Shown: positions 7,134 through 18,758 of the stretch, piece after piece
How positions within the stretch are numbered: the stretch's first letter is position 1
Layout of the letters: each line of letters opens with the position of its first letter
Source: an uncultured Caldimonas sp.
GTDB taxonomy: Bacteria > Pseudomonadota > Gammaproteobacteria > Burkholderiales > Burkholderiaceae
NCBI RefSeq assembly: GCF_946480305.1
Contig: NZ_CAMLJQ010000020.1
Location: 8,201 to 72,200, forward strand
Length of the DNA stretch: 64,000 nucleotides
Direction of reading: 5' to 3'
Position numbers and translations under genes: made by a program
The notes under the pieces: generated by a model
What the model saw: only the letters and a program-made list of their open reading frames with translations
The model's database searches: none
Told to the model about the DNA's origin: nothing

Positions 7134-7838
7134 TCAGAACCGGGCTTGCCAGTAGGCAGCCACCTTGTGGCGCCGGACCTTGAGCACCATGCGCGACTGG
7201 TCGTCGAACTTCACGCGCAGCCCGCCGTGCGCGATGCCGAACCGCGAACCCTTGAACGGCGCCCACTCGAACCCCAGCCGCGCGCGGCGCAGGGGCACGA
7301 GGCGGCCGTCGTTGAACCCATGCAGCGACGCCGCGCTGGCATAGAAGCTCGAATGCATCGACAACTCGTGCCGCCAGTCGAGCTGCAGCGTCGGCATGAC
7401 GACCGTCGGATCTGACGTGCCGGCCTCACGTGCTGCTGGCGCCAGGTGGTATCCGGTCGCACCGACCGAGAGGCTGAGGCTGTCGCTGCCACGCCGCAGC
7501 GTCCAGCCGTAACCCACGAATCGGGGCTGCAGGTCCAGCGATGGGGCGACAGCGGGAGCCGGCGGCGTCTCGGGTGGCAGCAGGTCGACGACCACCGCGG
7601 CGTGCGTCCAGCCGGAAGCAGCCCGCGCCTCCTCGATTTCGTCTGGCGTCGCGGGCACAGGTGCGACCAGCGTCTGCGGTTGTTGCGCGGCGAGAGGCTC
7701 GGAGGCGAGCAACGCGCGCCACGCGCACAACACCAGCGCGCCCACGAGCTGTCGCGCGCAGCGGCGCCCCCCTGCGCGGTGTGTGCGCACACCAATGGCG
7801 TCGCTGGGGTCTTTGCACGACGAAGCCGGCCTGCTCAT
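7134..7838 (-). CDS. Uncharacterised exported protein, possibly outer-membrane-associated
   Basis: The 234-residue product is not recognised. An N-terminal hydrophobic segment (about residues 30-50) precedes a proline/alanine-rich linker. The C-terminal half is rich in alternating polar/aromatic strands and ends in an aromatic residue (WQARF), as outer-membrane beta-barrels often do. The ATG at 7838 was chosen because GGAGG lies six bases upstream; an in-frame ATG two codons earlier touches that site. It is divergent from the GGDEF gene. Between them a 7-bp inverted repeat, CCTCGGT (7963-7969) and ACCGAGG (7989-7995), could be an operator. Confidence 0.5.
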   Translation of the reverse strand: MSRPASSCKDPSDAIGVRTHRAGGRRCARQLVGALVLCAWRALLASEPLAAQQPQTLVAPVPATPDEIEEARAASGWTHAAVVVDLLPPETPPAPAVAPSLDLQPRFVGYGWTLRRGSDSLSLSVGATGYHLAPAAREAGTSDPTVVMPTLQLDWRHELSMHSSFYASAASLHGFNDGRLVPLRRARLGFEWAPFKGSRFGIAHGGLRVKFDDQSRMVLKVRRHKVAAYWQARF

Positions 7839-12958: not shown

Positions 12959-14560
12959 CTAGCGGGTGATCCCTTCGAAGTTCAGGCCGTAGCGTGCCAG
13001 GTACTTGCGCAGCCGGTCCGCATCGTTGACCACCGCGCGTTGCTGGCGCGATACCTCGAACAACTTGCGGCCGGCATCCGACAGCGTGCGAGATTGACGA
13101 CACACACGCACCACCCCTTCGAGCTGCAGGCGCTCGAACAGGTCGAGCGACGCAACAGTCTCTTGCTCGAGCAGGGCATCGAGATTCACTTCTGGCGCCG
13201 AGGAATCCGGCACGCTGCGCTGCCACAGCCATCGCAGGCGCGTGATTTCGGCATCGACCAGCGCTTCGCCGATGCGGCCTCCGTCGGCCAGCGTTGCCAG
13301 CCGCGTCACCGAGGCCGCCAGGTCGCGGAAATTGCCGCTCCACAGCGCCTCGTCCGATTGTGCAAAGCGAAGGTAGCGCGCCTTCGCCTCGGCGTTGAAA
13401 CGTACCTGGCGCCCCACATCGCGCGCCGCCTCGGTGAGCAGGTAATCGACGTTGGGCTCGATGTCTTCCGGCCGCTGTGCCAGGCCCGGCAGCTCGTAGC
13501 TCCAGAGGTTGATCCGCGCGAACAGATCGTCGCGGAAACGGCCTTGGGCGACCGCCTCGCGCAGGTCGCGGTTGGTGCCGGCGATCAGCTGGAAGTCGCT
13601 CGCCACTTCGCGGTCGGCGCCGACGGGATAAAAGCGCTTCTCCTCGATGGCCTTCAGCAGCATCGCCTGTTCGTCCAGGCCCAGTTCGCCGATCTCGTCG
13701 AGGAACAACACGCCCTGGTCGGCGCTGCGCAGCAGCCCGGCCCGTTCGGAGGCTGCACCGGTGAAGGCGCCGCGCTTGTGGCCGAACAGCGCCGAGGCCG
13801 CGCCATCGCCATGCAACGTGGCGCAGTTCACTTCGACGAAGGGGCCGGTGACCTGGTGGCGGGCCTTCTTCAGCTCGTACATGCGGCGCGCGAGGAAGGA
13901 CTTGCCGGCACCGGTGGGGCCGGTCACGAGGATGGGTGCGCGTGAACGCACGGCCACGCGCTCGATCTCGTCGATCAGCGTGTTGAAGCGCGCGTTGCGC
14001 GTGGCGATGCCGGACTTCAGGAACTGCACCGCGTCGCGCTGCTCGCGCTCGAAGCGCTGTGCGAGCGCGTCGTAGCGCGACAGGTCCAGGTCGATCAGCG
14101 TGTAGCTGCCGGGGTCGCCGGCGCGTTGCCGCTTGGGGGGTGCCGTCTGCAGCAGCACGCCCGGAATGAAGCGTGCCTCCACCAGCAGGAACAGGCAGAT
14201 CTGCGCGACGTGGGTGCCGGTCGTGATGTGGGCCCAGTATTCCTCGTGCTCCGGATCGAAGGCATGGCCGCGCGACCAGTCGTACAGCGCGCCATAGACC
14301 TCACCGAAGTCCCACGGGTCGGCCAGGTCCAGCGAGACGAGGCGGGTGGTGGTTTCCGGCGACACGGTGGCGATGTCGCCAGCCACCCGTTCGGCCAGTT
14401 CGGCGTGCCGCGGCGTGTAGAGCAGCTCGAGCCGGTCGACGACCAAGTCGTCGTGCTGCACCAGCGAGAGGGTGGGGCGCCACTTCTCCCAGCGGCCGGC
14501 ACCGTTGCCGCCGTCGAGCTGGGTGCCGAGGAAACCGATGACAACGCGGCGTTTGGGCAT
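12959..14560 (-). CDS. rtcR: RtcR, CARF-domain sigma54-dependent activator of the RNA repair operon
   Basis: At 533 residues it matches the length of E. coli RtcR. The N-terminal CARF-type sensor domain (about 1-185) begins MPKRRVVIGFLGTQLDGG. The AAA+ domain has Walker A GPTGAGKS (214-221), the sigma54-contact loop GAFTGA (264-269) and Walker B VLFLDEIGE (284-292). The C-terminal region ends in a Fis-like helix-turn-helix. RtcR is known to switch on rtcBA when its CARF domain senses RNA ends or fragments. The gene is divergent from slipin-rtcBA, and sigma54-type promoters lie between them. Confidence 0.95.
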   Translation of the reverse strand: MPKRRVVIGFLGTQLDGGNGAGRWEKWRPTLSLVQHDDLVVDRLELLYTPRHAELAERVAGDIATVSPETTTRLVSLDLADPWDFGEVYGALYDWSRGHAFDPEHEEYWAHITTGTHVAQICLFLLVEARFIPGVLLQTAPPKRQRAGDPGSYTLIDLDLSRYDALAQRFEREQRDAVQFLKSGIATRNARFNTLIDEIERVAVRSRAPILVTGPTGAGKSFLARRMYELKKARHQVTGPFVEVNCATLHGDGAASALFGHKRGAFTGAASERAGLLRSADQGVLFLDEIGELGLDEQAMLLKAIEEKRFYPVGADREVASDFQLIAGTNRDLREAVAQGRFRDDLFARINLWSYELPGLAQRPEDIEPNVDYLLTEAARDVGRQVRFNAEAKARYLRFAQSDEALWSGNFRDLAASVTRLATLADGGRIGEALVDAEITRLRWLWQRSVPDSSAPEVNLDALLEQETVASLDLFERLQLEGVVRVCRQSRTLSDAGRKLFEVSRQQRAVVNDADRLRKYLARYGLNFEGITR

Positions 14561-14645
14561 AAGGATTGGATAAAAGACTAGCTGGGATTCTAGGGTTTCC
14601 GTGCATCAAGAATCTCGCAAGGATTGCGCCGCCGGCAAAAACTCC

Positions 14646-14661
14646 TGGCAGGACAAGGGCT
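14646..14661 (+). promoter_or_regulatory. Possible distal sigma54 promoter of the rtc operon
   Basis: TGGCAGGACAAGGGCT keeps the essential GG-N10-GC spacing (GG 14647-14648, GC 14659-14660). It is a weaker match to TGGCACG-N4-TTGCW than the site 46 bases downstream. It may be a secondary promoter or a chance match. Confidence 0.35.
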
Positions 14662-14691
14662 TAACGCTGCTCGGCCGCGAGGTGCATCGGC

Positions 14692-14707
14692 TGGCACGGG
14701 CCATGCA
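14692..14707 (+). promoter_or_regulatory. Sigma54 (-24/-12) promoter of slipin-rtcBA
   Basis: TGGCACGGGCCATGCA matches the sigma54 consensus TGGCACG-N4-TTGCW closely, with GG at 14693-14694 and GC at 14705-14706. Predicted transcription start is near 14718. It lies downstream of the rtcR start, in the direction of slipin-rtcBA, as expected for an RtcR-activated promoter. About 550 nt of leader separate it from the slipin ATG. Confidence 0.75.
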
Positions 14708-14824
14708 ATCCATCACTTCGTCCACCGAGGAAAGGTGAGCGCTGACAGGCCAGGGGTTCCCACAGCCCCGCCGGTGCGCAGGTCCCGGGCGTTGCCCGTT
14801 GGTTCCCGCGTATGCCGCGCCGCC

Positions 14825-14900
14825 CGGAAGCGATGGGCTCGGAGTTCAAGTGGTTTGCAGCGCAAGTGCGCTGCCGGGTTCGACTCCCGGGGTTCCGCCA
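14825..14900 (+). ncRNA. tRNA-like element 1 in the rtc leader (Y-RNA/YrlA-like?), ends in CCA
   Basis: The 76-nt segment closes with CGGAA (14825-14829) pairing TTCCG (14893-14897), directly followed by CCA (14898-14900). It has a canonical T arm: stem CCGGG/CCCGG around the loop TTCGACT (14879-14885). The anticodon position is taken by a tight hairpin, CAGCGC-AAGT-GCGCTG (14858-14873), with no variable loop before the T stem. No normal 4-bp D stem is evident. It is therefore a tRNA mimic rather than a tRNA. Enterobacterial rtc operons carry YrlA, a Y RNA with a tRNA-like module, at a comparable position. Confidence 0.6.
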
Positions 14901-14974
14901 TGTTCTGTAGCTCAGACGGTAGAGCAGCGGACGATGAATCCGCCTGTCGCAGGTTCGACTCCTGCCGAACAAGC
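14901..14974 (+). ncRNA. tRNA-like element 2 in the rtc leader (degenerate tRNA-Asn-like)
   Basis: It starts at the base after the CCA of element 1 and follows standard tRNA numbering (position n is base 14900+n). The D stem is GCTC/GAGC, the anticodon stem GCGGA/TCCGC, and the T arm GCAGG-TTCGACT-CCTGC. The body resembles bacterial tRNA-Asn. However, the anticodon loop reads CGATGAA, with G where U33 is nearly universal. The acceptor stem pairs only as TGTTC/GAACA with a one-base offset, and no CCA is encoded. It is unlikely to serve translation. Confidence 0.6.
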
Positions 14975-15000
14975 TGACGTCCTCACACGACGTATTTGAG

Positions 15001-15240
15001 AAACCGAGCCGAAAGGCTCATGCCGAACGCGGGGCGCGGGCGGCGCGGCGAGAGGTGCGGGAGGCACCGATCGTCGCCGGCCGGTGCCTCGTCAGCGCAG
15101 ACAGCTCTGCGCCCGGGAAGGGCGCCGTGCGCGGCGCCGGCCAGCCGAAGACCTCCGGGTCCGACGCGCACCGGCGGCCCTGCACGGTGGCCCCCCGAGC
15201 CCGCCGCCTGCGCTGTAACGGCTCCCCGCGAGGGGATCGC
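15001..15240 (+). other. Structured distal leader of the slipin-rtcBA mRNA
   Basis: There is no convincing reading frame here. Clear hairpins are GAGCC-GAAA-GGCTC (15006-15019, GNRA loop), the 9-bp stem GAGGCACCG (15061-15069) with CGGTGCCTC (15082-15090), and CCCC-GCGA-GGGG (15224-15235, GNRA loop). Two GNRA-capped stems and a long stem in 240 nt suggest a folded RNA. It may act as a regulatory leader or as a further processed ncRNA. Confidence 0.4.
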
Positions 15241-15267
15241 ATGACAACAACGAATCGGAGAAATGAA

Positions 15268-16407
15268 ATGCTGGGTATGAAGCGCTATACGGTGAAGAAG
15301 AACGAGCGTGGCCTGTTGCTGCGCAATGGCGACTTCGAGCGCGTGCTGCCGCCGGGCAGCCACTGGATCTTCAAGGGCATGGACGCCGTGCGGGTCGAGA
15401 CCTTCGCGCTGGAGCAGCCGGCCTTCGCGCACTCGCTGGCCGACTACTTCCTGGCCAAGGAGCCGGAGCTGGTCGATCGCGAGTTCGTGCGGGTCGAGTT
15501 GACCGACACCCAGGTCGGTCTGCGGTACGAGAACGGCGTGCTGGCCGAAGTGCTGGCGCCCGCGACCCGCAAGCTGTACTGGAAGGGCCTGGTCGACACG
15601 CGGGTCGAGGTGGTCGACATCGATGCCGACGCGCAGGTGCCGCCTGCCATCGTGTCGCGGCTGACGCAGACGCAACTGCGGCAGCGCGCGGTGGTGGGCC
15701 TGGGTGGTGTGCTGCAGGGCCAGGTGGCCGAGCATCATGTCGGCCTGCTGTGGATCGACGGCAAGGTGGCCGAACTGCTGCAGCCGGGTCCGTACGCATA
15801 CTGGCGCTTCAACCGTGTCGTGATGGTTGAGCCGGTGGATCTGCGCTTGCAGGTGATGGAGGTCACGGGCCAGGAGATCCTGACCAAGGACAAGGTCGCA
15901 CTGCGGCTGAACCTGGCCGCGACCTGGCGCTACACCGACGTGCTGCAGGCCTACCGCCAGCTCACCAAGCCGGGCGAGCACCTGTACCGCGAGCTGCAGT
16001 TCGGCCTGCGCGCTGCAGTGGGTACCCGTACGCTGGACGAGCTGCTGGAGAACAAGTCCGTGATCGACGAGGTCGTGATCGCGCATGTGCGCCAGAAGCT
16101 GGAAGGCTACGGCCTGGAGCTGGAAGGCGCCGGCGTGAAGGACATCGTGCTGCCCGGCGAGATGAAGACCTTGCTGGCGCAGGTGGTCGAGGCCGAGAAG
16201 GCCGCGCAGGCCAATGTGATCCGCCGCCGCGAGGAGACCGCGGCGACCCGGTCGCTGTTGAACACCGCGAAGGTGATGGAAGACAACCCGACGGCCTTGC
16301 GCCTGAAGGAACTCGAGACGCTGGAGCGGGTGGCCGAACGGATCGACAAGATCTCGGTGTTCGGTGGCCTGGACTCGGTGCTCAACGGGCTGGTGAAGCT
16401 GCGTTGA
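15268..16407 (+). CDS. Slipin/band-7 (SPFH) family protein of the rtc operon
   Basis: The protein (379 residues) begins MLGMKRYTVKKNERGLLL and has an SPFH/band-7 domain (about 180-320, including RLNLAATWRYTD and the oligomerisation helix with VVEAEKAAQANVIRRREETAATRS). It lacks a clear N-terminal membrane hairpin. Slipins are recurrent partners of RtcB-type ligases in bacteria, possibly scaffolding the repair enzymes; the mechanism is unknown. The start at 15268 has GGAG at 15257-15260. An in-frame ATG at 15241 would add nine residues. It is first of three co-directional genes: slipin, rtcB, rtcA. Confidence 0.85.
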   Translation: MLGMKRYTVKKNERGLLLRNGDFERVLPPGSHWIFKGMDAVRVETFALEQPAFAHSLADYFLAKEPELVDREFVRVELTDTQVGLRYENGVLAEVLAPATRKLYWKGLVDTRVEVVDIDADAQVPPAIVSRLTQTQLRQRAVVGLGGVLQGQVAEHHVGLLWIDGKVAELLQPGPYAYWRFNRVVMVEPVDLRLQVMEVTGQEILTKDKVALRLNLAATWRYTDVLQAYRQLTKPGEHLYRELQFGLRAAVGTRTLDELLENKSVIDEVVIAHVRQKLEGYGLELEGAGVKDIVLPGEMKTLLAQVVEAEKAAQANVIRRREETAATRSLLNTAKVMEDNPTALRLKELETLERVAERIDKISVFGGLDSVLNGLVKLR

Positions 16408-16465
16408 CGATGTGAAGGAAGGCCGCGATGCCCGCAAGGGCGCGCGGCTTCTCAGGAGTGAAGAA

Positions 16466-17683
16466 ATGGAACAGAACTACCACCTCGAAGAAGTCCCCGG
16501 CGGCGTGCCGGTGAAGATGTGGACCCAGGGCGTACCCGTGGAAGACGAGGCCAAGCGCCAGCTCGCCAACGCGGCCCGCCTGCCGATCGTGTTCAAGCAC
16601 ATCGCGGCGATGCCCGACGTGCATCTGGGCATCGGTGCCACCGTCGGCTCGGTGATCCCGACCGTGAAGGCGATCATCCCGGCTGCGGTGGGCGTGGACA
16701 TCGGCTGCGGCATGATCGCCGCCAAGACCACGCTGCGCGCCGAAGACCTGCCGGACAACCTGGCACCGCTGCGCAGCGCGATCGAACGTGCGGTGCCGCA
16801 TGGCCGTGCACCGGGTGCACGCGACCCGGGCGCCTGGGGCAAGATCCCCGGCGTGGTGGATACCGCGTGGGAACAGTTGGCGCCCGAGTTCACCGAACTC
16901 TGCCGCGACTACCCCAAGCTGGAAAAGACCAACCACCGCAACCACCTGGGCACGCTCGGCACCGGCAACCACTTCATCGAGGTCTGCCTGGACGAAGATG
17001 GCTTCGTGTGGTTCATGCTGCACTCCGGTTCGCGCGGCGTCGGCAACGCGATCGGCACGATGTTCATCGAGCTGGCCAAGCAGGACGCGATGCGCCATGA
17101 GGCCAACCTGCCGGACCGCGACCTCGCGTACTTCGAGGAAGGCTCGCGCTACTTCGGCGACTACGTGCGTGCCGTGAGCTGGGCGCAGAAGTTCGCCAAG
17201 CTGAACCGCGAGGTGATGATGCGCCGCGTGATCGAGGCCGCCAAGACGGTGATCCGCAAGAACTTCCAGAGCCACGTGGAAGCGGTGAACTGCCATCACA
17301 ACTACGTGCAGCAGGAGCGCCACTTCGGGCAGGACGTCTACGTGACCCGCAAGGGTGCGGTGAGCGCGAAGAAGGGCGAGCTGGGCATCATCCCGGGCAG
17401 CATGGGTGCGCGCAGCTACATCGTGCGCGGCCTCGGCAACCCGGAGAGCTTCGAGTCGTGCTCGCACGGCGCGGGGCGCACGATGAGCCGCGGCGAGGCC
17501 AAGCGCCGCTTCACGCTGGCCGATCACCGCGCGGCGACCGAAGGCGTGGAGTGCCGCAAGGACAAGGACGTCATCGACGAGATCCCGATGGCCTACAAGG
17601 ACATCGACGCGGTGATGGAAGCGCAGCGCGACCTGGTGGAGGTGGTGCATACCTTGAAGCAGGTGGTCTGCGTCAAGGGTTGA
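16466..17683 (+). CDS. rtcB: RNA-splicing ligase RtcB
   Basis: RtcB joins RNA ends bearing 2',3'-cyclic phosphate or 3'-phosphate to 5'-OH ends using GTP and Mn2+. The 405-residue protein matches the E. coli form. Manganese ligands and active-site residues are visible in VGVDIGCGM (Asp78, Cys81), NHRNHLGTLGTGNHF and LHSGSRGVG. The guanylated histidine is in SCSHGAGR (His334, equivalent to E. coli His337). The ATG at 16466 has AGGAG at 16454-16458. Gaps of 58 bases after slipin and 49 before rtcA indicate one operon under RtcR/sigma54. Confidence 0.97.
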   Translation: MEQNYHLEEVPGGVPVKMWTQGVPVEDEAKRQLANAARLPIVFKHIAAMPDVHLGIGATVGSVIPTVKAIIPAAVGVDIGCGMIAAKTTLRAEDLPDNLAPLRSAIERAVPHGRAPGARDPGAWGKIPGVVDTAWEQLAPEFTELCRDYPKLEKTNHRNHLGTLGTGNHFIEVCLDEDGFVWFMLHSGSRGVGNAIGTMFIELAKQDAMRHEANLPDRDLAYFEEGSRYFGDYVRAVSWAQKFAKLNREVMMRRVIEAAKTVIRKNFQSHVEAVNCHHNYVQQERHFGQDVYVTRKGAVSAKKGELGIIPGSMGARSYIVRGLGNPESFESCSHGAGRTMSRGEAKRRFTLADHRAATEGVECRKDKDVIDEIPMAYKDIDAVMEAQRDLVEVVHTLKQVVCVKG

Positions 17684-17732: not shown

Positions 17733-18758
17733 ATGATTCATCTCGATGGTTCCCATGGCGAGGGCGGCGGCCAGATCCTGCGCACCTCGCTCGCGTTGTC
17801 GGTGCTGACCGGCCGGCCGATCCGCATCGACAACATCCGCGCGCGCCGGCCCAAGCCGGGTTTGATGCGCCAGCACCTCGTGTGCGTGCAGGCCGCGGCC
17901 GAGATCAGCGGGGCACGCACCGAGGGCGCCGAGCTGCACTCGACCTCGCTGACGTTCGAGCCGCAGGCCGTGCGTGCCGGGCGCTACCGCTTTGCCGTGT
18001 CCAGCGCGGGCAGCTGCACGTTGGTGCTGCAGACCGTGCTGCCGCCGCTGCTGCATGCCGCCGAAGCGAGCACCATCGAGCTGGCCGGCGGCACGCACAA
18101 TCCGATGGCACCGCCGTACCACTTTCTGGAACGGGCGTACGCGCCGCTCGTGCGCCGTCTCGGCGGCGACCTGCGCCTGAGCCTCAAGCGCCACGGCTTC
18201 TACCCGGCTGGTGGTGGCGAGGTCGAGGCCATCATTCACCCGGTGCCCGCTGGAGACTGGCAGCATCTGGCGCTCGAATCGCGCGGCGCATTGGTCGAGG
18301 CCTATGCCGAGGCGCTGGTCGCCGGCGTGCCGCGTACCGTGGCGCAACGCGAGCTGGACACGCTCGGTGCCGCGCTGGGCTGGAGCGGCGATCAGCTGCG
18401 CACGGCGCCGTTGCGCCAGAACGAGGGACCCGGCAATGCGTTGCTGGCGACGCTCGCGTACGAGCATGTGACCGAGGTGTTCACAGAGTTCGGTGACCGC
18501 CAGGTGTCGGCCGAGCAGGTGGCGCATCGGCTGGCGAAGGAGGTTCGCGCGTACCAGGCGAGCGAGGCCGCAGTCGGCCCGCACCTGTGCGACCAGTTGG
18601 CGCTGCTGATCGCACTCGCCGGCAAAGGCTCGTTCACCGCGAGCGAGATCACTGAGCACGCACGTACGAATTTCCTGGTGATTCAGAAGTTCTTGCCGGT
18701 GCGCTTCGACGTCGAGCCATCGCCAGCGGGCTGGCGGGTCACGGTGACGGGCTTGTGA
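17733..18758 (+). CDS. rtcA: RNA 3'-terminal phosphate cyclase RtcA
   Basis: RtcA converts RNA 3'-phosphates (or 2'-phosphates) to 2',3'-cyclic phosphates using ATP, making ends that RtcB can use. The 341-residue protein opens with the family hallmark DGSHGEGGGQILRTSLALS. Other family segments are FAVSSAGSCTLVLQT and the adenylylated histidine context VGPHLCDQLALL (His about 284; His309 in E. coli). It is the last gene of the operon. No U-tract terminator is visible on this strand downstream; the strong hairpin at 18869-18928 is oriented as a terminator for the opposite strand. Confidence 0.96.
   Translation: MIHLDGSHGEGGGQILRTSLALSVLTGRPIRIDNIRARRPKPGLMRQHLVCVQAAAEISGARTEGAELHSTSLTFEPQAVRAGRYRFAVSSAGSCTLVLQTVLPPLLHAAEASTIELAGGTHNPMAPPYHFLERAYAPLVRRLGGDLRLSLKRHGFYPAGGGEVEAIIHPVPAGDWQHLALESRGALVEAYAEALVAGVPRTVAQRELDTLGAALGWSGDQLRTAPLRQNEGPGNALLATLAYEHVTEVFTEFGDRQVSAEQVAHRLAKEVRAYQASEAAVGPHLCDQLALLIALAGKGSFTASEITEHARTNFLVIQKFLPVRFDVEPSPAGWRVTVTGL

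Follow-up and report, generated by a model that had tools for sequence, protein, structure and literature searches.

A stretch of 64,000 nucleotides (nt) from an uncultured Caldimonas sp. (contig NZ_CAMLJQ010000020.1, positions 8,201 to 72,200; hereafter the window) carries, directly ahead of a slipin gene, a structured RNA leader of about 550 nt (14718-15267) made up, in order, of a 5' junction domain, two tandem tRNA mimics termed TLS1 and TLS2, and a 3' domain. The leader accompanies slipin rather than RtcR, RtcB, RtcA, or Ro60, and it is apparently an undescribed RNA family tied to slipin, tRNA mimicry as such being already known. The original prediction had described an RtcR-type slipin-rtcBA operon in which two adjacent and different mimics, one of them with a CCA end, follow a sigma54-type promoter; this layout was borne out by ARAGORN, the Rfam tRNA model RF00005, reading of the sequence by hand, and matches of the genes.

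Run on the whole window, ARAGORN called exactly two tRNAs, which adjoin one another in the slipin leader at 14825-14899 ('Cys') and 14900-14974 ('His'). TLS1 (14841-14900, + strand), as read by hand, is a tRNA mimic without a D-arm. Its acceptor, GGAGTT/GGTTCC, includes three G-U pairs, a hairpin occupies the anticodon position, and the T-arm CCGGG-TTCGACT-CCCGG is followed by a G and then CCA at 14898-14900. It scores below the RF00005 threshold and gives subthreshold matches to mascRNA (20.1 bits) and tRNA-Sec (17.6 bits). TLS2 (14901-14971, + strand) has a D-arm, an anticodon arm, and a T-arm, and passes RF00005 with 45.7 bits against a gathering threshold of 29. Its acceptor is imperfect or bulged, no CCA follows it, and its 7-nt anticodon loop, CGATGAA, has G at position 33 instead of U. 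With G33, a bulged acceptor, and no CCA in this TLS2, and with anticodons that are not conserved in the family, a working pair of tRNAs is ruled out.

The mimics are flanked by two further domains. The 5' domain (14734-14826, + strand) is a helix junction with the conserved elements GCUCACAGG, CCGGUGC, and GYAUGCCGC, and matches our covariance model R1 with 65.1 bits, the window being one of the 38 training rows of that model. The 3' domain (15004-15236, + strand) was delimited by the conserved blocks and consensus fold of a 36-leader alignment. GNRA-capped hairpins had been foreseen 3' of the mimics and are present: GAGCC-GAAA-GGCTC at 15006-15019 opens the 3' domain and is followed by a long G+C-rich region, and a GCGA hairpin, CCCC-GCGA-GGGG, was seen in the sequence and fold of the window at 15224-15235. 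In relatives, conserved helices extend as far as GCTGTAACGGC (15212-15222).

To place the leader among relatives, a public collection was scanned with the slipin protein, and 80 loci (given L numbers) were kept out of 272 relatives, making 81 sources with the window. Conservation of the arms in related leaders, on which the original prediction had staked itself, was found in this set: a pair of T-loops 64-83 nt apart lies ahead of slipin in 74 of the 81 sources, window included. The pair is missing from L012 and L076, whose contigs are cut, and from L017, L018, L024, L028, and L048, where a single T-loop was found by pattern at the usual place. A sample across the phylum held slipin in 23 of 398 genomes, at 79 to 39% identity and with three of them in genomes already met. 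The 22 slipin loci from this sample with more than 800 nt upstream all have a strict T-arm; two T-loops were found by regular expression in 21/22 and a strict tandem pair in 18/22, compared to 0/440 shuffles with a pair.

What is conserved is the fold of the mimics, not decoding. The D- and T-arms of TLS2 are near-invariant across the family (D-arm in 79/79 leaders by a relaxed pattern and 78/79 by a strict one), while the anticodon loop is variable or replaced by a tetraloop. Counting a loop as 7 nt wherever a 5-bp stem closes it, the anticodon position of these 79 leaders holds 39 7-nt loops, 29 tetraloops, and 11 others. The 7-nt loops comprise 24 different loops with 19 anticodons, with U33 in 29/39, and the tetraloops are GAAA (14), GCAA (11; thus 25 GNRA), and others (4). 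CCA follows TLS1 in 54/74 and TLS2 in 12/79, against 4.2% at random leader positions. The Pseudomonas loci differ in that their TLS1 has a D-arm and no CCA. At L150:7669-7883, three tandem tRNA mimics stand ahead of slipin-rtcB-rtcA-rlaP.

Controls and covariation both indicate that these arms are not chance. When a strict T-arm test was applied to 79 long leaders, at least one T-arm was found in 78 and a tandem pair in 70; dinucleotide shuffles gave a T-arm in 2/1580 and a pair in 0/1580, and the reverse strand gave 0 and 0 of 79. Among 43 representative loci, TLS1 acceptor strands paired better with their own partners (mean score 8.21) than with permuted ones (6.68), none of 2000 permutations scoring as high; examples of the covarying acceptors are GGTGATG/CATCACC, CGGCAAG/CTTGCCG, and GGCGCGG/CCGCGCC. 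In L005, L023, L034, L059, and L074 the 5' strand with the best pairing is too distant to be plausible, and the acceptor assignments there are tentative. The fold of the whole leader in the window is more stable than expected (z -2.84; 0/100 shuffles equally stable).

The 5' domain is supported independently of the mimics. Its alignment over 38 loci has 19 predicted pairs, 14 of them with compensatory changes in which both sides have changed, and R1 was built from these 38 rows. The model placed the domain as expected in 79/81 sources; the other two lie on contigs that break off 389 and 319 nt upstream. Of the 43 sources outside its training, it found 41. Weak matches were those of L039 (E 0.0014) and L053 (E 0.1, worse than the best off-site match at E 0.04 in 811,649 bases). 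Rfam was scanned with relaxed limits for the leaders of the window and L010, with curated limits for 14 and 9 further loci, and at E up to 1 for the E. coli leader. In these loci neither the 5' nor the 3' domain falls within any Rfam family, the relaxed scan gave only chance-level matches outside the mimics, and the E. coli leader matched nothing at E up to 1.

The original prediction put its emphasis on RtcR, and here the wider comparison pointed elsewhere. The window and 48 loci have a divergent RtcR, and in 49/49 of these sources a sigma54-type element with 9-12 of 12 consensus matches lies 37-42 nt before the 5' domain. Among the 30 RtcR-less sources with a 5' domain, such an element occupies that place only in L063, whose genome has a partial RtcR; in RtcR-less L011 an element with 9/12 matches lies 44 nt before the domain. 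The leader itself is kept in RtcR-less loci. For 28 of the 32 RtcR-less loci the source genomes were searched, 27 in number and of unstated completeness: one has an RtcR match above 650 bits and 26 have none, one of these 26 having a partial RtcR of 442 bits at a contig end. Among the matches listed, the other RtcR-model matches in these genomes reach at most 371 bits, a few spanning most of the model, and were taken for other sigma54 activators.

Loci without slipin gave the reciprocal result. As controls, 12 of 369 genomes supplied 13 RtcR loci, and E. coli K-12 one more. Both RtcR loci with slipin (2/2, both in genomes already seen) have at least two T-arms. The RtcR loci without slipin nearby, covered over 0.8-1.5 kb upstream (more in K-12) and including L160, the rtcR-rtcB end of the L149 locus, have no T-arm pair in 12/12, eleven of them lacking any T-arm and L151 having one. 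Moreover, six of ten loci opened to about 17 kb (L141-L146) have slipin and the tandem pair with no rtcB, RtcR, or tRNA array within about 8 kb, single tRNAs being called in two of them, and in L149, where rtcR and rtcB stand together, the mimic pair lies between rtcB and slipin, away from the RtcR promoter. An RtcR-specific element is therefore ruled out by the RtcR-less loci with the leader and the RtcR loci without the pair. The single T-arm of L151 is 286 nt from the rtcR start and about 110 nt before the start of a divergent 368-aa gene that is TROVE-like by eye.

A search of 299 family genomes with R1 matched 24, with one match each; 23/24 have an adjoining slipin, 11 have RtcR, and 13 have HNH. 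Eleven of these 24 loci are contigs of the first set. The only match without slipin, L098, is a decayed remnant in which the 5' domain is kept, no T-arms are recognisable, and the HNH gene is split between frames. A class-wide R1 search, insensitive at 11 candidates scored per genome, returned the query genome only (1/369). On a slipin tree of 79 rows the RtcR label needs four changes, a number due in part to truncated loci being counted as 'unknown', and at least three are forced by well-supported branches. RtcR-slipin-rtcBA operons and tRNA-array/HNH/slipin/rtcB loci are two versions of one system.

More distant slipin genes have similar or reduced leaders. Two Burkholderia loci match R1 with 58 and 54 bits and show, where the mimics would be expected, either T-loop pairs or a called tRNA; in Burkholderia stagnalis (L112:4539-6113), two slipin tblastn matches overlap, perhaps through a frameshift or partial duplication. 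Slipin is followed by RlaP in Citrobacter (L113:5995-7913, beside rtcR) and in E. coli (L114:5998-7922; PF10127 323 bits in E. coli), and in both leaders a single T-arm is present and a sigma54-like box can be made out by eye; R1 matches the Citrobacter leader weakly (18.7 bits, E 0.13) and the E. coli leader not at all. DNA matching the leader-slipin-rlaP stretch occurs in 1650 of 5426 complete E. coli genomes, in 1617 over at least 80% of the stretch. A Photobacterium slipin locus (39% identity) has two mimics with D-arms, and a Clostridia record (36% identity) has two T-arms and a similar 5' motif by eye; R1 matched neither. Among the 22 distant slipin loci L118-L140, the model reached E 0.001 in 7 and, in addition, matched L121 at 0.0007; in the others its matches were weak or lacking. 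An alignment of the 5' domain that includes distant leaders, with 23 rows chosen for a visible motif (leaving out L127, L131, L132, L137, L138, L139, and L112-L116), kept 14 pairs, 11 of them with compensatory changes. It replaced earlier 5'-helix scans of 28 distant leaders that were ill-posed (8/28 vs 17/560 shuffles; 2/28 vs 6/1400). No slipin match was found in the phages of INPHARED, and the one relative found in IMG/VR has no T-arm in its 165 nt of upstream sequence.

Kinship with YrlA, for which the original prediction saw precedent, was not upheld. YrlA (RF02553) is likewise reported as a tRNA-like module within RtcR-controlled rtcBA operons (PMC7790460). Against a threshold of 69 bits, the window scored 19.7 bits and L010 24.2 bits with the YrlA model, and the slipin leader differs in having two tRNA-shaped domains together with 5' and 3' domains. 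In L005, from Albitalea, a true YrlA (7627-7759, 81.1 bits) stands between slipin and rtcB in the same operon as the slipin leader, and a divergent Ro60-like gene (L005:5667-7262, vWA_Ro60 E 1.3e-19) lies in the same interval. A Pfam TROVE search of the 43 slipin genomes, which represent 43 of the 80 loci, gave 0/43 and missed that gene; a search of limited sensitivity with the L005 Ro60-like protein found 1/43, its own genome. The idea of a Y RNA in disguise is thus not supported by the subthreshold score, the single Ro60-like gene, and the separate YrlA of L005.

Other known RNAs resemble the leader in part. TLS1 of L010 matches the ends of the tmRNA model (RF00023), with acceptor and T-arm and no D-arm, at 31.4 bits, under the gathering threshold of 47, and ARAGORN lists no tmRNA in the window. 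The mascRNA-menRNA family (RF01684) is likewise a D-arm-less tRNA shape within a longer transcript, to which L010 scored 34 bits and the window, as noted, 20.1, both under the gathering threshold of 42.5; mascRNA is eukaryotic, and the likeness is one of shape without implied kinship. The leader of E. coli thrS carries tandem mimics of tRNA arms in an mRNA leader that is bound by its own gene product, the anticodon arms abutting the ribosome-binding site. The slipin leader, in contrast, has whole tRNA folds about 300 nt upstream, with an anticodon that is not conserved. No T-box model matched at E up to 5 within 14000-16000. In Anabaena, the tRNA array, HNH, slipin, and RtcB of the trn operon system all rise without TrcR (PMC10272220), and this same set is physically linked in the RtcR-less loci found here. 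The Anabaena system differs in having separate loci and an RHH repressor, and the available text of that paper mentions no tRNA-mimic leader. Titles and abstract openings in the literature gave no description of the slipin leader, a partial coverage under which a prior mention is possible; the distinct arrangement originally suspected thus appears to be new, and its spread is wider than was then implied.

In the window, slipin (15268-16407; PF01145 108 bits), rtcB, encoding an RNA ligase (16457-17683; PF01139 430 bits), and rtcA, encoding an RNA 3'-phosphate cyclase (17736-18758; TIGR03399 361 bits, above cutoff), lie on the + strand. The divergent rtcR (12959-14560, - strand), separated from slipin by 707 bases, encodes a sigma54 activator with a CARF domain (NF038308 of NCBIfam, 831.5 bits against a cutoff of 650; PF06956). 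A sigma54-type -24/-12 element, TGGCACGGGCCATGCA, with 11/12 consensus matches is located at 14692-14707 (+ strand), and the transcript is therefore expected to start near 14717. Divergent RtcR, sigma54-type promoter, and rtcBA together are those of an RtcR-type RNA-repair operon, and control of slipin-rtcBA by RtcR is predicted from gene layout and promoter. PADLOC matched RtcR only among the window proteins, leaving slipin, RtcB, and RtcA without a match. The AlphaFold2 model of slipin (mean pLDDT 81.6) has two N-terminal beta domains, and its fold matches stomatin, HflK, and MVP; no transmembrane segment was seen by eye, no predictor being used. Rings are the known assembly of SPFH proteins, and the window slipin probably forms them.

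The surroundings vary among relatives. An HNH gene occurs in 23 loci, including L005, which has RtcR as well. Arrays of 10-19 tRNA genes of many isotypes lie 5' of the leader, with HNH between, in L001, L002, L041, L060, L062, and others, all RtcR-less; the largest, with 19 genes, is that of L060. A protease-like gene stands between slipin and rtcB in L001 (ClpP-like SDH-type), L006, L018, L040, and L045, for which slipin-NfeD pairs provide a comparison. In Acidovorax radicis an RNase P RNA gene (L021:1686-2126, - strand; 190.5 bits) lies near rtcR.

At a little short of even confidence, we tentatively favor a role in cis, with the leader as a tRNA-mimic operator or an assembly site for slipin and the repair proteins that go with it; the binding steps we infer from sequence comparison and position. 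In all intact loci examined the leader lies immediately upstream of slipin on the same strand, and within the limits of the scans no separate copies were found; because of this position and the one copy found per genome, it would act mainly in cis. The two tRNA-shaped domains would present the tRNA elbow, the contact of D-loop and T-loop, inside the slipin mRNA, and recognition of the elbow is favored because the shape is conserved while the anticodon loop is free. Slipin, or a repair partner that it gathers (RtcB, RtcA, RlaP), might then bind damaged tRNA and leader alike. When damaged tRNA is scarce, the protein would occupy its own leader and limit further output or hold the complex in store; a build-up of damaged tRNA would compete the protein off the leader, a logic of autogenous control by tRNA mimicry. 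TLS1, which ends in CCA, may in addition be a substrate for enzymes that trim tRNA, and leader processing would then be linked to tRNA maturation.

Several observations weigh against an operator. No classic expression platform is visible, since the conserved helices stop about 45 nt before the start codon and there is no terminator; a classic attenuator was dropped as 14600-15400 holds no terminator-like site. TLS2, at about 300 nt from the start codon, is far for an operator that blocks ribosome entry. Only a single T-arm is visible in L121, and the E. coli and Citrobacter leader is a reduced form with one T-arm. Against the mimics themselves, the TLS pair folded alone was not more stable than shuffles (z -0.63; 53/200 at least as stable), and its minimum-energy fold is no double cloverleaf; because single-sequence folding gave no support, the case for the mimics rests on comparison. 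Separate copies of the leader could have been missed, as the R1 genome scans scored 11-14 candidates per genome, and an RNA cut out of the mRNA to act in trans would leave a very similar picture. Such a trans-acting partner would be released from the mRNA and scaffold or guide a slipin ring together with RtcB, RtcA, or RlaP, as a functional analogue of the Y RNA of Ro60 or the vault RNA of MVP; we hold it to be somewhat unlikely. That the mimics are instead a processing signal, where RNase P and 3' tRNA maturation enzymes cut and so determine where the slipin mRNA begins and how stable it is, seems quite improbable: the frequent CCA after TLS1 and the tRNA genes upstream of the leader in tRNA-array loci would fit, but CCA is infrequent after TLS2, and both the conserved 5' and 3' domains and the need for two different mimics would go unexplained.

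The roles first suggested for the mimics, as decoys or sensors for anticodon nucleases or as ligands of RtcR, fared poorly, and we regard a decoy, a sensor, or a source of RtcR ligand after cleavage as very unlikely. The CARF domain of RtcR is reported to bind 5' tRNA halves with a 2',3'-cyclic phosphate (PMC7790460), and the 39/79 TLS2 with 7-nt loops and 19 anticodons look as if loops diversify against nucleases. A general decoy role is weakened, however, because 29/79 TLS2, 25 of them GNRA, replace the anticodon loop by a tetraloop. As a general role, feedback through the CARF domain of RtcR is excluded, since RtcR-less loci carry the leader and RtcR loci without slipin nearby lack the mimic pair, and the RNA is kept in genomes without an RtcR match above cutoff. 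In Salmonella, fragments of the tRNA-like YrlA reportedly went undetected (PMC7790460). Decayed tRNA genes without function can hardly be the answer: TLS2 lacks the features of a working tRNA and the single-sequence fold has no cloverleaf, but such an origin is already contradicted by the covariation, the compensatory changes, the wide conservation, and the 0/1580 shuffles.

Beyond the operator that we prefer, a bolder idea, which we consider rather doubtful, is a vault-like particle for RNA repair in bacteria, with the slipin leader as its RNA subunit. Slipin, as a soluble SPFH ring, would nucleate on the leader of its own mRNA and the tandem mimics would dock RtcB, RtcA, or RlaP, with RtcR, tRNA arrays, and other promoters as interchangeable switches. 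The leader bears on what slipin does in bacterial RNA-repair operons and on the means by which repair enzymes locate damaged tRNA. A doubly tRNA-shaped RNA that accompanies slipin in a phylum-wide sample is a concrete, testable link between slipin and tRNA, and it suggests that RNA repair has an RNA partner or control switch not described before.
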